35,457 bases of DNA. It comes from Candidatus Nitrosopumilus sp. Its GTDB lineage: Archaea; Thermoproteota; Nitrososphaeria; Nitrososphaerales; Nitrosopumilaceae. Both the position numbers and the translations under genes were made by a program. The DNA lies in contig JAOKTA010000006.1 of NCBI GenBank assembly GCA_028335865.1, positions 1 to 35,457 of the forward strand. Reading direction: 5' to 3'. Below are positions 7,981 to 13,789 of the stretch, piece by piece (position 1 is the first letter of the stretch; each line of letters starts with the position of its first letter). The notes under the pieces are model-generated. The model saw nothing but the letters and a program-made list of their open reading frames with translations, was not told the origin of the DNA and ran no database searches.

Positions 7981-9732
7981 TTAAAATAAACTATTTGCTA
8001 TCTTTTTTAATGACATAATTTCATCCTCCTCCTGCCTAATTTTCTTATCTATTACTCGAAGCATTGAATCATTCCAAACATGCTGGGAGAAAAAATTATG
8101 TTTTGTATTTGCTAATTCAATCTCATCATCAACTACTGTATCCTCTAAAAATTTAGTCACGATTACATCTGTAATTTTTAAAATTCTATTGTTAAGTTTA
8201 AAGCTATGAAAAATTGGCTCTAATTTTCTAATGTCCAGTTTAAAATCTCCTTTTGATTCTAAAATTTTCTTATGTAATATTCTGAAATAAACTGCCACAA
8301 AAAATAACGTTGCATATCTTTTTGTTTTATGTCCTCCTTGCTTTCCATACTTTAGTGATTTTTTTGCAAATTCTTTTACAAGATATGGGTATAGTATTAT
8401 TCTGTAATCATCTTTAAGATTATCATTAAAAATATGATCATATTTGCTACCTCTTGGAAGAAATTGCGATGGTGAACTATATGCTTCTGTTGGCCTTTGT
8501 TCAATTCCAGCTACCAGTGATTGGATTGCATCTTTGGCAACAATGACTTTTTTATGATTGTCTGGAAGATAGTTGTTATACGCTGTATCTCCATTGTATT
8601 CTGATTGTTTTGATTTTGATTTTGTATCAAATGAACCGGCTTGAATTTCATAAAAATATCCGCAGTTTTTTAATTGTGATTTAATTGACTTGTGAAAATC
8701 CATTAATGACACTAAATCTTTTCCTCTTACTGAATTTTGAGAATTTCTATATTTTGTAATGTTGTTTTGTTCTTGTTCGTCATCTGCTTTGATTATTGTA
8801 ACTGTCATTGAACCGTCCATGTTTTTTGTTCTTTTTGAATGATCTAAAATTGAGTTTGATGTTTGTGCACCGTTGACAATCTGTGGTGCAAAAAGTTCAA
8901 TCATGTTTTCTCCTAACTCTGTAAAATCACTAACTACTATTGTAATTCCGTTATTATAAAAAAAGAACTTTCCTGGATTTGTTTGTAATGTTTCTCGTAA
9001 CCCCTTATTCACTGTAGTTTTAAATTGCATCCATTGCCTGATGTTTGATTCAAAAACATACTCTTTGTTTTTACTTACAAACTCTGTTAATTCTCGTAGT
9101 TTTAAAATACCTAGTATGGTGTTTTCATGTCTTAGCATTCTTTCTAATTTAATAGATGATTTTTTTCCCGCAGCTGGTTTTTTAATTCTGTCCCATAAAT
9201 TTTGGATTATCTTTTCTTCGTCTATGATATCTACTAATTCGTCTTGATAGTCCACTTTTTGATCCGTAACATAACAGCATTTTATTTTTAGATTTTTTTC
9301 TTTAATTTTTGTAACTAGTTGAGCTAACTCTGGTCTCATTTTTGTTACATCCTTTGAAAGCAATCTTTTTGCATCTTCTTTGAATTTAGCAATTGCTTCT
9401 AGTGAATGCGATGTGCCATATTTTGACTGAAATAATCTAACTGTATTATCTGAAAAATCTACTGGAAGATATGCGTCTATTCCTAGATCGTTTGCTCCAT
9501 CTACAATTGCATCTGCTGCATCATCTTCTGTAGCCTCAAAAACTCTTGTTAAAATCCATTGAAGGAAATTTTTCCCTTTTTCAACCTCATTTTTTGAATC
9601 CTCTGCATACTCGTGAATATTATCTCTGATATTTTCTGCAAACCCTTCTAGTGGCGGGCTCAAATTTTTTTGTATTAGTAACTTTTCTGAACCTGGTATG
9701 TATTCTAATAGACCACTTGAATTCTGTGACAT
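7981..9732 (-). CDS. AIPR-family protein with nuclease-like N-terminal domain
   Basis: Residues about 250-420 carry AIPR (abortive infection phage resistance) landmarks: F-F-Y-N-N-G-I-T-I (NNG at 260-262), P-Q-I-V-N-G-A-Q-T-S (285-291) and E-Q-N-N-I-T-K-Y-R-N-S-Q-N. Upstream, G-I-D (Asp86) and F-Q-S-K-Y (Gln102, Lys104) have the spacing of an Mrr-like PD-(D/E/Q)xK nuclease core, preceded by an Asp/Glu-rich helix. Relatives are found among phage-defence and restriction-linked genes. Here no methyltransferase or phage gene is adjacent, so a defence role is inference. At 583 aa it looks intact. A TATATA box lies about 20 bases before the ATG. The cupredoxin gene diverges from it. Confidence 0.82.
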   Translation of the reverse strand: MSQNSSGLLEYIPGSEKLLIQKNLSPPLEGFAENIRDNIHEYAEDSKNEVEKGKNFLQWILTRVFEATEDDAADAIVDGANDLGIDAYLPVDFSDNTVRLFQSKYGTSHSLEAIAKFKEDAKRLLSKDVTKMRPELAQLVTKIKEKNLKIKCCYVTDQKVDYQDELVDIIDEEKIIQNLWDRIKKPAAGKKSSIKLERMLRHENTILGILKLRELTEFVSKNKEYVFESNIRQWMQFKTTVNKGLRETLQTNPGKFFFYNNGITIVVSDFTELGENMIELFAPQIVNGAQTSNSILDHSKRTKNMDGSMTVTIIKADDEQEQNNITKYRNSQNSVRGKDLVSLMDFHKSIKSQLKNCGYFYEIQAGSFDTKSKSKQSEYNGDTAYNNYLPDNHKKVIVAKDAIQSLVAGIEQRPTEAYSSPSQFLPRGSKYDHIFNDNLKDDYRIILYPYLVKEFAKKSLKYGKQGGHKTKRYATLFFVAVYFRILHKKILESKGDFKLDIRKLEPIFHSFKLNNRILKITDVIVTKFLEDTVVDDEIELANTKHNFFSQHVWNDSMLRVIDKKIRQEEDEIMSLKKIANSLF

Positions 9733-10372: not shown

Positions 10373-10627
10373 TTAAATCACTTTAAAACGATCCATGTTG
10401 GATTGTTTTTCTTTTTGTAACCATGAATTTCTTACATCTTCACCCGTTATGGTTACTCGTTTTGGCTTTGTTTGAGCAACTAAGTCTACTGCACTTTTTG
10501 CAATTTCTTCTGCAATTTCTTCTATTGTTCTTCTTAATTCATCTGCTGATTCATCACTAACTCTATTTGCTCCTGCTTTTTTTAAAATTCTATACATTGC
10601 AGATAATCCTAATTCTGATGATTTCAT
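10373..10627 (-). CDS. Archaeal histone (HMf-type)
   Basis: A single histone fold of 84 aa. Helix 1 is in L-S-A-M-Y-R-I-L-K-K-A-G-A, followed by the loop N-R-V-S. The long helix 2 is rich in Glu (E-L-R-R-T-I-E-E-I-A). Loop 2 is K-P-K-R-V-T-I-T and helix 3 starts G-E-D-V-R. The basic loop residues and the K-R-V-T segment are those that contact DNA in HMfB. About 12 residues extend beyond the minimal fold. It forms dimers or longer stacks that wrap DNA. The gene is monocistronic, divergent from tatD. Small for a transcript and probably well expressed. Confidence 0.93.
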   Translation of the reverse strand: MKSSELGLSAMYRILKKAGANRVSDESADELRRTIEEIAEEIAKSAVDLVAQTKPKRVTITGEDVRNSWLQKEKQSNMDRFKVI

Positions 10628-11509: not shown

Positions 11510-11866
11510 GTGGATAGGATAAAACGTATTTCTTTTGAAGTATTAGAGGCACATAAATCTAAATTCGGTGAAGATTTTGTTGAAAATAAAAAAGCATTAA
11601 ATGAAATTGCTATTGTTCGCTCTAAAGGTCTAAAAAATAAGGTCGCTGGTTATATTACAAGATTTCTCAAAAAACAAATTCGTGAAGATAAAATTAAACA
11701 TGATCGTAGTGGTATGGATTATTCTAATGTTGAAGAACAAGAATCTACATTAGACATTACAGAGTCTGGTGAAATTGATGAATCTGGTGAAGAAATTACT
11801 CTAACCAACGAAGAAGTTGAAACAATTACATCTACAACTCCACCTGTAGATGAAAAAACTGAATAA
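11510..11866 (+). CDS. rps17e: 30S ribosomal protein S17e with acidic C-terminal tail
   Basis: GTG start. Residues 1-60 match the eukaryote/archaea-specific S17e: M-D-R-I-K-R, a helix, F-x-x-N-K-K-A-L-N-E, S-K-G-L-K-N-K-V-A-G-Y-I-T-R. Archaeal S17e is usually only about 60-70 aa, whereas this one continues for some 55 more residues of acidic, Ser/Thr-rich sequence (E-S-G-E-I-D-E-S-G-E-E-I-T and similar) that looks disordered. The S11 of this genome also has an acidic extension. The core call is strong. The role of the tail is unknown. Confidence 0.87.
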   Translation: MDRIKRISFEVLEAHKSKFGEDFVENKKALNEIAIVRSKGLKNKVAGYITRFLKKQIREDKIKHDRSGMDYSNVEEQESTLDITESGEIDESGEEITLTNEEVETITSTTPPVDEKTE

Positions 11867-11903: not shown

Positions 11904-12677
11904 ATGATTGTTATAAAATTTCTTGGTGGCGCAAAAAAGTCTTTTAATTCTGAAAAATTAGAAATTAGTGAATCTGATATTTCTATTCAAGATTTGCTTG
12001 ACTTATTATTTAAATTAAAACCTAAAGACACTTCTGATTTTGATTTTGAAAATATTTTGATTGCTGTTAATGGTTCTGATTCTTCTGCAATGGAAGGAAA
12101 ATCTACCACTGTTCATGATGGGGACGTTGTAAGTATTATACCTGTGATTCATGGAGGTTCATCAAAAAAATCTTGTTTTGAAATTGAAAAAAAACAAATT
12201 TGTATTTTTGAAATATGCGGCAAAAAAACTGTCGATATTAAATTCATTGACAATTTGAGAAAAACATACCCTAAAATTAAATTTCAGGCTGTATCTACTA
12301 ATTTTATACTTAGTGCATCACATTTAAAAAAAATTTTATCTCTTTCAATTAACGCTGAAAAAAATAATATTTTACTTTCTAATAAAATTGAAACTGATAT
12401 TTTAATGCGTTTTGCGTTGACATTGCAAATTTCTAATGCTATATCTTCTGCTGGAATAAAACCTTCTGTTAATTTTATTTTAATTACAATTGGAAATAAA
12501 ATTTTTCCTGATTCTTTAAGTCATGAATTATCTTTAATTTCTTCAGATTTATTTTCAAAAAATAATTCTACATTTATAAAAAAGCAATTCAATATTTCAA
12601 AAAAACATGTTGATAGTGTTTATTCAAAAACTCCATTAGAAGATATCTTAGTTGAAAAAGCTTCTATTTTATTCTGA
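11904..12677 (+). CDS. Fusion of ubiquitin-like (ThiS/MoaD/Urm1 fold) domain and KEOPS subunit Cgi121
   Basis: Residues 1-86 look like a beta-grasp protein of the ThiS/MoaD/Urm1 kind: a V-I-K-F-L-G-G-A-K-K strand, an I-Q-D-L-L-D-L-L helix, I-L-I-A-V-N-G, then H-D-G-D-V-V-S-I-I-P-V-I-H-G-G, ending in the Gly84-Gly85 that free family members use for activation. From about residue 95 the protein resembles Cgi121: an A-V-S-T...H-L segment, D-I-L-M-R-F-A-L-T-L-Q-I-S-N-A-I, G-I-K-P-S-V-N-F-I-L-I, and a closing helix. Cgi121 binds Bud32 and tRNA in the KEOPS complex that makes t6A. tsaC, which makes the t6A precursor, is 500 bases away. The stop overlaps the convergent THUMP gene by 9 bases. Confidence 0.75.
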   Translation: MIVIKFLGGAKKSFNSEKLEISESDISIQDLLDLLFKLKPKDTSDFDFENILIAVNGSDSSAMEGKSTTVHDGDVVSIIPVIHGGSSKKSCFEIEKKQICIFEICGKKTVDIKFIDNLRKTYPKIKFQAVSTNFILSASHLKKILSLSINAEKNNILLSNKIETDILMRFALTLQISNAISSAGIKPSVNFILITIGNKIFPDSLSHELSLISSDLFSKNNSTFIKKQFNISKKHVDSVYSKTPLEDILVEKASILF

Positions 12678-13193
12678 CATACTACGTTTTGTTTTTTCAA
12701 TACTTAGTATATCTGCCTCTTTTAATATAGAAATTCCTGTCATACCGCCCAACACTTCAATCAAAATTATTTTATCTGGAAAATCTAATGAAACTTTATT
12801 TTTTATTTCATGTGCTATTTTTGTAATGATCTCTTTGCTTGATATGTCTGAGTTTCTTTTTTCAATCAAAATTCTATATGTTTCTCCATCTAGAATTTGA
12901 TTTGAGATGTTGGAAATTGCCCTTTCTATTAATTCTATTTTTGTTTCAATTACTTTTTGAATGGGTATTATTCTAAGGCAATATCTTATGCTCCAAGGTT
13001 GATCCAGTAGTATTTCTTTCATTTTTTTAACAACTTCAATTGGTTCTAATTTTGTTTGTGCCGTTAAAATTCCCGACATATCACTTATTGACACTTCTAT
13101 CTCTGAATCTCCTAATTCATCTAAAATATCTCTTAATTCTTCTTCAGTGTCTTCTTCAAGATGTCTGGCACAAGTAATAATCAGGTTCATCAT
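12669..13193 (-). CDS. THUMP-domain RNA-binding protein (Tan1-like)
   Basis: A 174-aa protein made essentially of a THUMP domain: an N-terminal ferredoxin-like part (L-I-I-T-C-A-R-H-L-E-E-D then E-E-L-R-D-I-L) and a THUMP core (W-S-I-R-Y-C-L-R-I-I-P, S-N-I-S-N, E-T-Y-R-I-L-I-E-K-R-N, I-L-I-E-V-L-G-G-M-T-G-I-S-I-L). No methyltransferase or thiouridylase domain is attached, as in Tan1, which helps acetylate cytidine in tRNA. It starts within the tsaC stop (ATGATGA), so it is translationally coupled to tsaC. Binding to tRNA acceptor regions is known for THUMP. The exact partner is inference. Confidence 0.83.
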   Translation of the reverse strand: MMNLIITCARHLEEDTEEELRDILDELGDSEIEVSISDMSGILTAQTKLEPIEVVKKMKEILLDQPWSIRYCLRIIPIQKVIETKIELIERAISNISNQILDGETYRILIEKRNSDISSKEIITKIAHEIKNKVSLDFPDKIILIEVLGGMTGISILKEADILSIEKTKRSMSE

Positions 13194-13789
13194 ATCATAA
13201 TTTCCTCTTTTTTCAATACTCCTTCTCTAATGATTTTAATTTCTTCATTTTCTATTTCAATAATTGTTGATTCTCCTTTACTTGTAATTGTTCCTCCGTT
13301 TAGAAAAATATCGTAATTTATAATATTTTTGAGACATTCTTTTGGATCTGTAGATGATGGATTTCCCGAAATATTTGAACTAGTTCCTACTAACAATCCA
13401 CATTTTTTTAATAATTTTAGAGTACATTTGGAGTCTGGAATTCTTACTGCGATTTTATTATCTAATTTTAGTGATTTCTTCAATTTTTTATCTGTTAATT
13501 CTAAAATTAATGTTAATGGGCCCGGCCAATATTTCTTTATAATTTTTTCAGTGAATGTATCGATACGTGCTATTTGTTTTACAGTATCTAATGAGTATGC
13601 TAATACTGGTAGTGGTTTTATTTTCTCTCTGGATTTTATCTCATAGATTTTTTCTACTGCATTTACATTATATGGATTACATCCCATTCCGTATACTGTA
13701 TCTGTTGGAAATATTACAATTCCTCCATTTTCAATTACTTGAAATGTTTTTCCAATGCCTTCATCATTACAATCTACTTTCAATATCAT
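13190..13789 (-). CDS. tsaC: L-threonylcarbamoyladenylate synthase (TsaC/Sua5/YrdC family)
   Basis: It makes threonylcarbamoyl-AMP from Thr, bicarbonate and ATP, the first step of t6A37 formation in ANN-decoding tRNAs. Visible: F-P-T-D-T-V-Y-G-M-G-C-N (about 27-38), the K-S-R-x-K-x-x-P-L nucleotide motif, Y-W-P-G-P-L-T-L-I, V-R-I-P-D and T-S-S-N-I-S-G. At 199 aa it is the short TsaC form without the Sua5 C-terminal domain. Coupled to the THUMP gene downstream. A Cgi121 fusion gene ends beside that one, so two steps of the t6A pathway are clustered. Confidence 0.93.
   Translation of the reverse strand: MILKVDCNDEGIGKTFQVIENGGIVIFPTDTVYGMGCNPYNVNAVEKIYEIKSREKIKPLPVLAYSLDTVKQIARIDTFTEKIIKKYWPGPLTLILELTDKKLKKSLKLDNKIAVRIPDSKCTLKLLKKCGLLVGTSSNISGNPSSTDPKECLKNIINYDIFLNGGTITSKGESTIIEIENEEIKIIREGVLKKEEIMI

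Follow-up and report, generated by a model that had tools for sequence, protein, structure and literature searches.

The gene at positions 11904-12677 of the window (the whole stretch of 35,457 nucleotides of DNA analysed here) encodes, as one protein, a ubiquitin-like (Ubl) domain with a Gly-Gly motif at its end and the Cgi121 subunit of the tRNA-modifying KEOPS complex. This raises the question of whether the product is a precursor, cut after the Gly-Gly to release an active modifier, or a fixed module whose two domains stay joined, two alternatives that an earlier reading made from the letters alone (hereafter the sequence-only reading) had rightly framed. The gene is a single frame on the + strand that starts with ATG and, including its stop codon, fills the whole interval; it codes for 257 amino acids with no stop inside, as that reading had stated. 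The opposite strand is rich in stops in the same frame, and the open reading frame listing of the window contains no reverse frame of 70 amino acids or more inside 11904-12677.

Residues 1-85 (positions 11904-12158, + strand) correspond to a beta-grasp domain of the ThiS/MoaD/Urm1 type ending in His83-Gly84-Gly85, an assignment based on the Pfam ThiS profile, structural matches and a phylogenetic tree. Pfam ThiS (PF02597) matches residues 6-85 with an E-value of 4.5e-10 and a score of 40.4 bits (cut-off 22.5). Residues 89-257 (12168-12674, + strand) correspond to a Cgi121 domain, which passes the Pfam CGI-121 threshold only barely (PF08617, residues 116-234, E-value 1.3e-5, 25.7 bits for a cut-off of 25) and also exceeds that of the NCBIfam model NF011465, 'KEOPS complex subunit Cgi121' (139.9 bits for a cut-off of 40). 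Scanned singly, each half again matches significantly, with E-values of 4.3e-11 for ThiS and 6.9e-6 for CGI-121. The named Ubl subfamilies remain below their NCBIfam cut-offs (Urm1_like 23.1 of 70 bits, SAMP1 23.2 of 60, moaD_arch 30.1 of 49.5), and Pfam Urm1, whose cut-off is 21.8 bits, scores 20.2 for the whole protein and 24.7 for residues 1-85 alone. Because the named Urm1, SAMP1 and archaeal MoaD models fall under their cut-offs, we file the domain in the ThiS superfamily as Urm1-like, and not as Urm1 or SAMP1 proper. The Gly-Gly is internal, and the primary product thus carries no free C-terminal Gly-Gly.

An AlphaFold2 model built from the window protein and 76 relatives (mean pLDDT 89.7, pTM 0.65) matches the expected fold in both domains; its modest pTM would be as expected for two domains on a hinge. 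Residues 1-84 of the model resemble Urm1 and MoaD (VIA Z up to 11.4) and SAMP1 (Z 10.1), and residues 88-257 resemble human TPRKB (6wqx_A, Z up to 17.5), yeast Cgi121 (Z about 17) and the Cgi121 subunit of an archaeal KEOPS-tRNA structure (8up5_C, Z 14.8). The segment Ile82-His83-Gly84-Gly85 (12147-12158, + strand), after which we propose the cut, is the sole one with a pLDDT below 50, although a low value is frequent at any inter-domain hinge and is no proof of disorder. Residues 86-88 (12159-12167, + strand), which column counts mark as variable, form a joint to which the model assigns neither strand nor helix. With two curated profiles and fold matches at hand, and not a mere short motif, we set aside a chance match as the origin of the domain calls. 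The architecture, namely a Ubl (1-85), a three-residue joint and Cgi121 (about 89-257) in one gene, is confirmed. The sequence-only reading had placed the ThiS/MoaD/Urm1-type domain at residues 1-86, the Gly-Gly at positions 84-85 and a Cgi121-like domain behind them; it had proposed profile searches of both halves and a structure prediction, and both agree with it.

The S17e ribosomal protein gene lies directly upstream (11510-11866, + strand; Pfam Ribosomal_S17e, 4.4e-17) and precedes the fusion, co-oriented with it, in 121 of 122 fused loci, some of which come from the same strains; TatD also lies upstream on the strand of the fusion gene. On the other side, a THUMP-domain protein is encoded convergently (12669-13193, - strand; Pfam THUMP, 2.1e-6), as it is in all 122 fused loci, partly from the same strains. 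It is followed by the L-threonylcarbamoyladenylate synthase Sua5/TsaC (13190-13789, - strand; TIGR00057, 8.1e-50, over the cut-off), the maker of the KEOPS substrate, which is convergent in 110 of the 122 loci, the other 12 having no match within the stretch fetched. The S17e protein of the window has an acidic tail, rich in Thr and Glu, of about 50 residues past the S17e domain match (residues 4-66), and the S17e frame of locus L041 has an acidic tail as well. The window also encodes, near the tRNA-modification genes, a protein of the AIPR family, whose name links it to abortive infection (7981-9732, - strand; Pfam AIPR, 1.9e-58), and an archaeal histone-fold protein (10373-10627, - strand; Pfam CBFD_NFYB_HMF, 2.8e-9).

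Among 300 genomes drawn across the phylum, with 118 that lack a match outside the listing, the window's family contributed 44 matching genomes, 43 of which encode both domains as one uninterrupted frame. An unbroken frame is likewise present in all of the best 80 of 180 relatives from named genomes, which are mostly records of Nitrosopumilus, Nitrosarchaeum and other Nitrosopumilaceae; two of the 80, both MAGs, are named otherwise (L103 'Proteobacteria bacterium' and L133 'Nitrososphaeraceae archaeon'). Some strains occur both in the genome set and among the named loci (L063/G068 and L080, which have a contig of equal length, seem to be a single strain), and the counts of 43, 80 and 122 are therefore not independent. 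An assembly accident was set aside as the origin of the fusion, given that the frame is kept in 43/44 matching family members and 80/80 named loci. From this distribution, the fusion appears to mark one family, the Nitrosopumilaceae to judge by its named relatives.

The same genes are found unfused outside this family. In six genomes from two sister families of the same order, by inference the Nitrososphaeraceae and the Nitrosocaldaceae, S17e always lies upstream of a separate Ubl gene, which is followed by a Cgi121 gene in five of them; none was found beside the Ubl in L048. The separate Ubl ends exactly with GG in L046 and L048, one residue later in L047, and with GGCL or somewhat later in L049-L051. 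A Ubl frame also adjoins a Cgi121 match in more distant families, f11 (4 of the 5 loci read), f32 and f30. In a tree of 39 selected rows and 91 columns, the fused Ubls group with the separate ones of the sister families in a single clade (99/99) that does not include the E1-joined Ubls; 14 of 36 inner branches of this tree are open, long-branch warnings concern, among others, the E1-type rows, and L060 was left out because its hit was too short. On the simplest history, the gene order S17e-Ubl-Cgi121 is old, and the ancestor of the Nitrosopumilaceae lost the stop codon of the Ubl.

In genome G061 (L041:2419-3189), a TGA codon follows one codon after the GG, at the end of an 89-residue Ubl frame; directly behind it come a TTG and the Cgi121 frame, which is intact, and GGAGGT lies just upstream of the TGA-TTG. 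This stop, present in one genome, could be a natural split or a sequencing error. The idea of a single gene put forward in the sequence-only reading therefore holds for the Nitrosopumilaceae at large, but not for the sister families, nor for G061. In G228 (L060:1494-2405, family f30), the Ubl is fused via GG-S to a phosphoribosyltransferase domain directly upstream of the Cgi121 gene, a second, different Ubl fusion within the same gene neighbourhood. By eye, a convergent THUMP-like frame follows the Cgi121 gene of L060, and a frame of another genome of family f30 (G076, L059:1889-2821) resembles the Ubl-phosphoribosyltransferase of L060 by its look.

The Gly-Gly, whose conservation the sequence-only reading had proposed to check, turned out to be invariant in the homologues aligned; as both halves also match significantly and form one gene in this family, none of the refuting outcomes named by that reading came about. 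All 44 aligned sequences and all 80 named loci carry His83-Gly84-Gly85 unchanged, the figure for the loci being partly built in for His83 and Gly84, since the retrieval patterns for these loci include one ending in HG; the 44-sequence set, drawn from the phylum-wide genome search, is free of this bias. Directly after the motif, residue 86 is Ser or Ala in 36 of the 44 sequences. We counted changes along a tree of 110 non-redundant fusions, obtained from 123 by removal of sequences more than 97% identical, with L041 and the separate-gene families excluded. Gly84 and Gly85 underwent no amino-acid change, against at least 46 and at least 36 codon changes, respectively, and the mean number of amino-acid changes per column was 3.2 at positions 76-85 versus 23.9 at positions 86-95. 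This pattern of codon changes indicates that selection is acting on the Gly-Gly. Since IHGG has a pLDDT below 50 in an otherwise confident model, the Gly-Gly is unlikely to be kept for folding. Chemistry at Gly85, of the kind that free Ubls undergo, best accounts for a segment whose conservation ranks among the highest and whose fold is modelled with the lowest confidence.

These data bear on the possibility that the Ubl is a relic, fused by loss of a stop codon, with a Gly-Gly kept by the fold or by common ancestry and with only Cgi121 of importance. The restriction of the fusion to one family, for which a single event may suffice, is compatible with such a relic. However, the fusion sequences range down to about 42% identity with the window protein, and dozens of silent changes in the Gly codons have occurred without a single replacement in 110 sequences; the Gly-Gly is not confidently folded in the model, and the Ubl half does not evolve faster than the Cgi121 half (medians of 14 and 15 changes per column in the 110 fusions). 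We thus consider a relic very unlikely. The codons of the Gly-Gly can also spell GGAGGT, as they do in the window and in G061, where TTG follows the stop, and an internal translation start just after the Gly-Gly could in principle yield free Cgi121, the long form supplying the Ubl. A comparison of 43 genes, though, shows variable Gly codons and variable residues behind them, and neither a start codon nor a Shine-Dalgarno-like run is kept; we set this explanation aside and give it hardly any chance of being correct. With neither of these signals conserved at the joint, Cgi121 could become a separate protein only through cutting.

The repertoire of Ubls was then considered in 61 genomes of the family, 58 of which contain ThiS matches. 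A ThiS match lies in frame with Cgi121 in 53 genomes, 52 by Pfam and one, G312, by a profile derived from the fusions, which finds Cgi121 in the same frame in spite of the lack of a Pfam CGI-121 match. Altogether, 54 of the 61 genomes have a ThiS match linked to Cgi121, the two sharing one frame in 53 of the 54. Genome G311 has no ThiS match, and its Cgi121 match lies in a frame of 179 residues. The remaining ThiS matches correspond to E1-joined frames of 411-498 residues (one of 814), except in G061 (frame of 89 residues), G318 (92 residues) and G305 (300 residues, also holding an E1 match). Across the 61 genomes, only two of the ThiS-family domains matched are not part of a longer frame that also encodes Cgi121 or E1. 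With nearly all ThiS-type domains fused, the family would be almost devoid of a free ThiS-type Ubl if no cutting took place, the count covering ThiS-family domains only. The free Ubl of G318 (L064:2034-2312) is of the E1 type; its 92 residues end exactly with GG, it lies behind a threonine-synthase-like gene, and the E1 match is on another contig, which suggests a split of the Ubl-E1 fusion at its GG.

At L062:191-2735, L064 and L074, the Ubl-E1 gene (or that of its Ubl) begins no more than one base from where a threonine-synthase-like gene, identified by eye, ends. Since this neighbour had only distant matches in 8 of 10 genomes without a strong E1, the two genes may form a unit, conceivably one of sulfur metabolism. 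The E1-type joint, searched for with a strict pattern at eight loci, was found in five (L062, L067, L074, L156 and L157) and not in L075, L189 and L190.

The single frame itself, kept in 43 of 44 matching family members and, within the sample of 61, in 53 of the 54 that link a ThiS match to Cgi121, would also fit a protein that remains uncut. The Ubl would then be an arm of KEOPS that docks a partner, such as E1 or the thiolase, and so coordinates the making of t6A with other steps in tRNA biology or in translation, with the Gly-Gly in the docking face. The joint has just three residues, both domains are modelled with high confidence, and Makarova and Koonin had suggested a coordinated functioning (PMC2948915). 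Cgi121 binds the CCA end of tRNA (PMC7718258), which would bring a tethered carrier near the substrate. The M. jannaschii residues mutated for this contact are F21, K56, M60, Q71, I72 and G80 (PMC7718258). By hand count, Q71, I72 and G80 align with Q175, I176 and G184 of the window protein, which show no amino-acid change in 110 sequences, whereas K56 and M60, aligned with N160 and T164, are not kept, and F21 falls outside the printed alignment. The kept CCA-contact residues favour, although not conclusively, a working tRNA-binding subunit in the Cgi121 half. A permanently joined protein is rather unlikely in our view: an invariant Gly-Gly of low model confidence, with variation setting in at once behind it, resembles a C-terminal tail in use and not a packed interface, the sister families have a separate Ubl ending at or just after the Gly-Gly, and almost no free ThiS-type Ubl would be left.

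Enzymes that could cut, activate and employ a Ubl are widespread in the family. Prok-JAB (JAMM) proteins occur in 59 of the 61 genomes, usually in two copies, and in 6 of 6 close relatives; the metal motif HxHxxxxxxxSxxD is present in all eight loci read, which are all among the best matches. E1 matches above 200 bits are found in 43 of the 61 genomes and in all 13 single-contig genomes, each of which has JAMM too. TIGR00269, the TtuA/Ncs6-type thiolase family, is present in 55 of 61 family genomes, in 12 of 13 single-contig genomes and in the window's own assembly. A role of the Ubl in molybdopterin synthesis was set aside, since MoaE was found in none of the 61 family genomes, against 11 of 14 named genomes in a control search. 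Neither E1 nor JAMM was found in the window's own assembly (727 kb, 56% complete); strain AH-541-E13, whose fusion is 97% identical, encodes a Ubl-E1 protein with an internal GG and two JAMM proteins.

No strong E1 was found in 18 of the 61 family genomes, nor in 4 of the 6 close relatives searched by locus, and the Gly-Gly is kept there. In the near-complete genome G068, the flanks of Ubl-E1 lie at two contig ends (C11, position 48301 of 48561; C5, position 40501 of 40518), so that the E1 region falls between contigs and its absence is unreadable. Ten genomes without strong E1 (7 of the 18 and 3 of the 4 close relatives) were searched for the threonine-synthase-like neighbour of E1, which gave distant matches only in eight and, in two, a close match that extends to a contig edge. 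A missing E1 as the sign of an idle Gly-Gly was set aside, the absence in G068 being unreadable, while a real loss is possible in some of the other genomes.

The best reading of these data, to which we give a probability of slightly less than 0.6, is that of a precursor cut after the Gly-Gly into a Urm1/SAMP-like sulfur carrier or modifier and the KEOPS subunit Cgi121. We infer the cutting, the activation and the choice of client as follows. The fusion gene would give rise to a single precursor, from which a JAMM metalloprotease, cutting behind Gly85, would release one Cgi121 and one Ubl with a free GG at its C-terminus. E1, which itself carries a second Ubl in these genomes, would adenylate the freed Ubl at Gly85; this Ubl could then carry sulfur to the TtuA/Ncs6-type enzyme for tRNA thiolation, modify proteins, or do both, while the freed Cgi121 would join KEOPS and present tRNA for t6A formation. 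Cutting after the Gly-Gly is indirectly supported by the invariance and low model confidence of this motif, by the scarcity of free ThiS-type Ubls and by the presence of JAMM and E1.

Such reactions have precedents: the JAMM protease DR0402 of D. radiodurans is reported to cut a linear MoaD-MoaE fusion, leaving a C-terminal Gly (PMC8832034), and two Caldiarchaeum enzymes are reported to cut precursors, CsJAMM those of SAMPs and CsRpn11 that of ubiquitin, the latter exactly after the GG (PMC6043591). According to Hepowit 2012, as cited in PMC8832034, H. volcanii JAMM1 can do without the GG when it acts on linear fusions; cutting by the protease alone would hence leave the invariant Gly-Gly unexplained, and its use by E1 would explain it. 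Further points also speak against the proposed precursor. The presence of JAMM, E1 and thiolase equally fits the second, E1-joined Ubl as the working carrier, and a benefit of staying joined is conceivable for a protein encoded in one frame in nearly all family members. The Ubl might also remain attached to Cgi121 until needed, with cutting, or re-attachment to KEOPS by SAMPylation, acting as a switch of t6A formation. Covalent linkage is reported to inhibit molybdopterin synthase in the SAMP1/HvJAMM1 system (PMC4443979), and regulation of KEOPS by SAMPylation was proposed by Makarova and Koonin (PMC2948915), but we regard this self-regulation as improbable.

The sequence-only reading knew of no description of the fusion, which is at odds with the published record. 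Makarova and Koonin (2010; PMC2948915, section 3.2) reported a Ubl-Cgi121 fusion beside S17 as conserved throughout the thaumarchaeal genomes accessible at that time, and the window, with the same two domains and the same S17 neighbour, holds a member of this group; the Ubl-E1 fusion also appears in that article. Relative to its text on the fusion, the separate genes in sister families, the invariance and low model confidence of the Gly-Gly, the near-absence of free ThiS-type Ubls and the splits at the joint are new, and the reading as a cut precursor is sharper than the published wording. Among the matches listed in a full-text literature search, PMC2948915 was the only article to describe the fusion, with no later one and no experiment on it. 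The main texts of PMC9889334 and PMC10989989 contain no thaumarchaeal term, and neither KEOPS nor Cgi121 is mentioned in the part of PMC7203096 that was covered.

Three known systems resemble the proposed cut precursor. In the MoaD-MoaE protein of D. radiodurans, a carrier of the ThiS/MoaD type likewise lies ahead of its partner, and the JAMM protease DR0402 leaves a C-terminal Gly; there the partner is MoaE and cutting has been demonstrated (PMC8832034), whereas the partner is here a KEOPS subunit and the cutting is what we infer. In the same archaea as the Cgi121 fusion, the Ubl-E1 (ThiS-ThiF) protein is a second case of a Ubl with an internal GG ahead of its partner, split exactly at the GG in G318, but its Ubl belongs to a different branch and is joined to an activating enzyme. 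In eukaryotes, ubiquitin is fused to ribosomal proteins in Ub-eS31 and Ub-eL40, which are cut by deubiquitinases of other classes. These fusions likewise place a modifier with an internal GG ahead of a translation-related protein, with a possible equal supply of both; the partner is a ribosomal protein in eukaryotes and a subunit of a tRNA-modifying complex in the window.

On a wider reading, for which we see a little less than an even chance, both ThiS-type Ubls of the Nitrosopumilaceae would be born fused, one to a KEOPS subunit and the other to E1, and JAMM would cut after an invariant, flexible Gly-Gly. This would be the archaeal counterpart of the ubiquitin-ribosomal protein precursor and would tie a tRNA-thiolating or protein-tagging modifier one to one to a t6A subunit, within an S17e-Ubl-Cgi121 gene order older than the fusion. 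Taken as a series, the separate genes, the fusion and the fresh split suggest how an operon, by losing one stop codon, may give rise to a modifier precursor. If the protein is indeed a cut precursor, it would directly link two tRNA modifications and archaeal ubiquitin-like tagging in widespread marine archaea.
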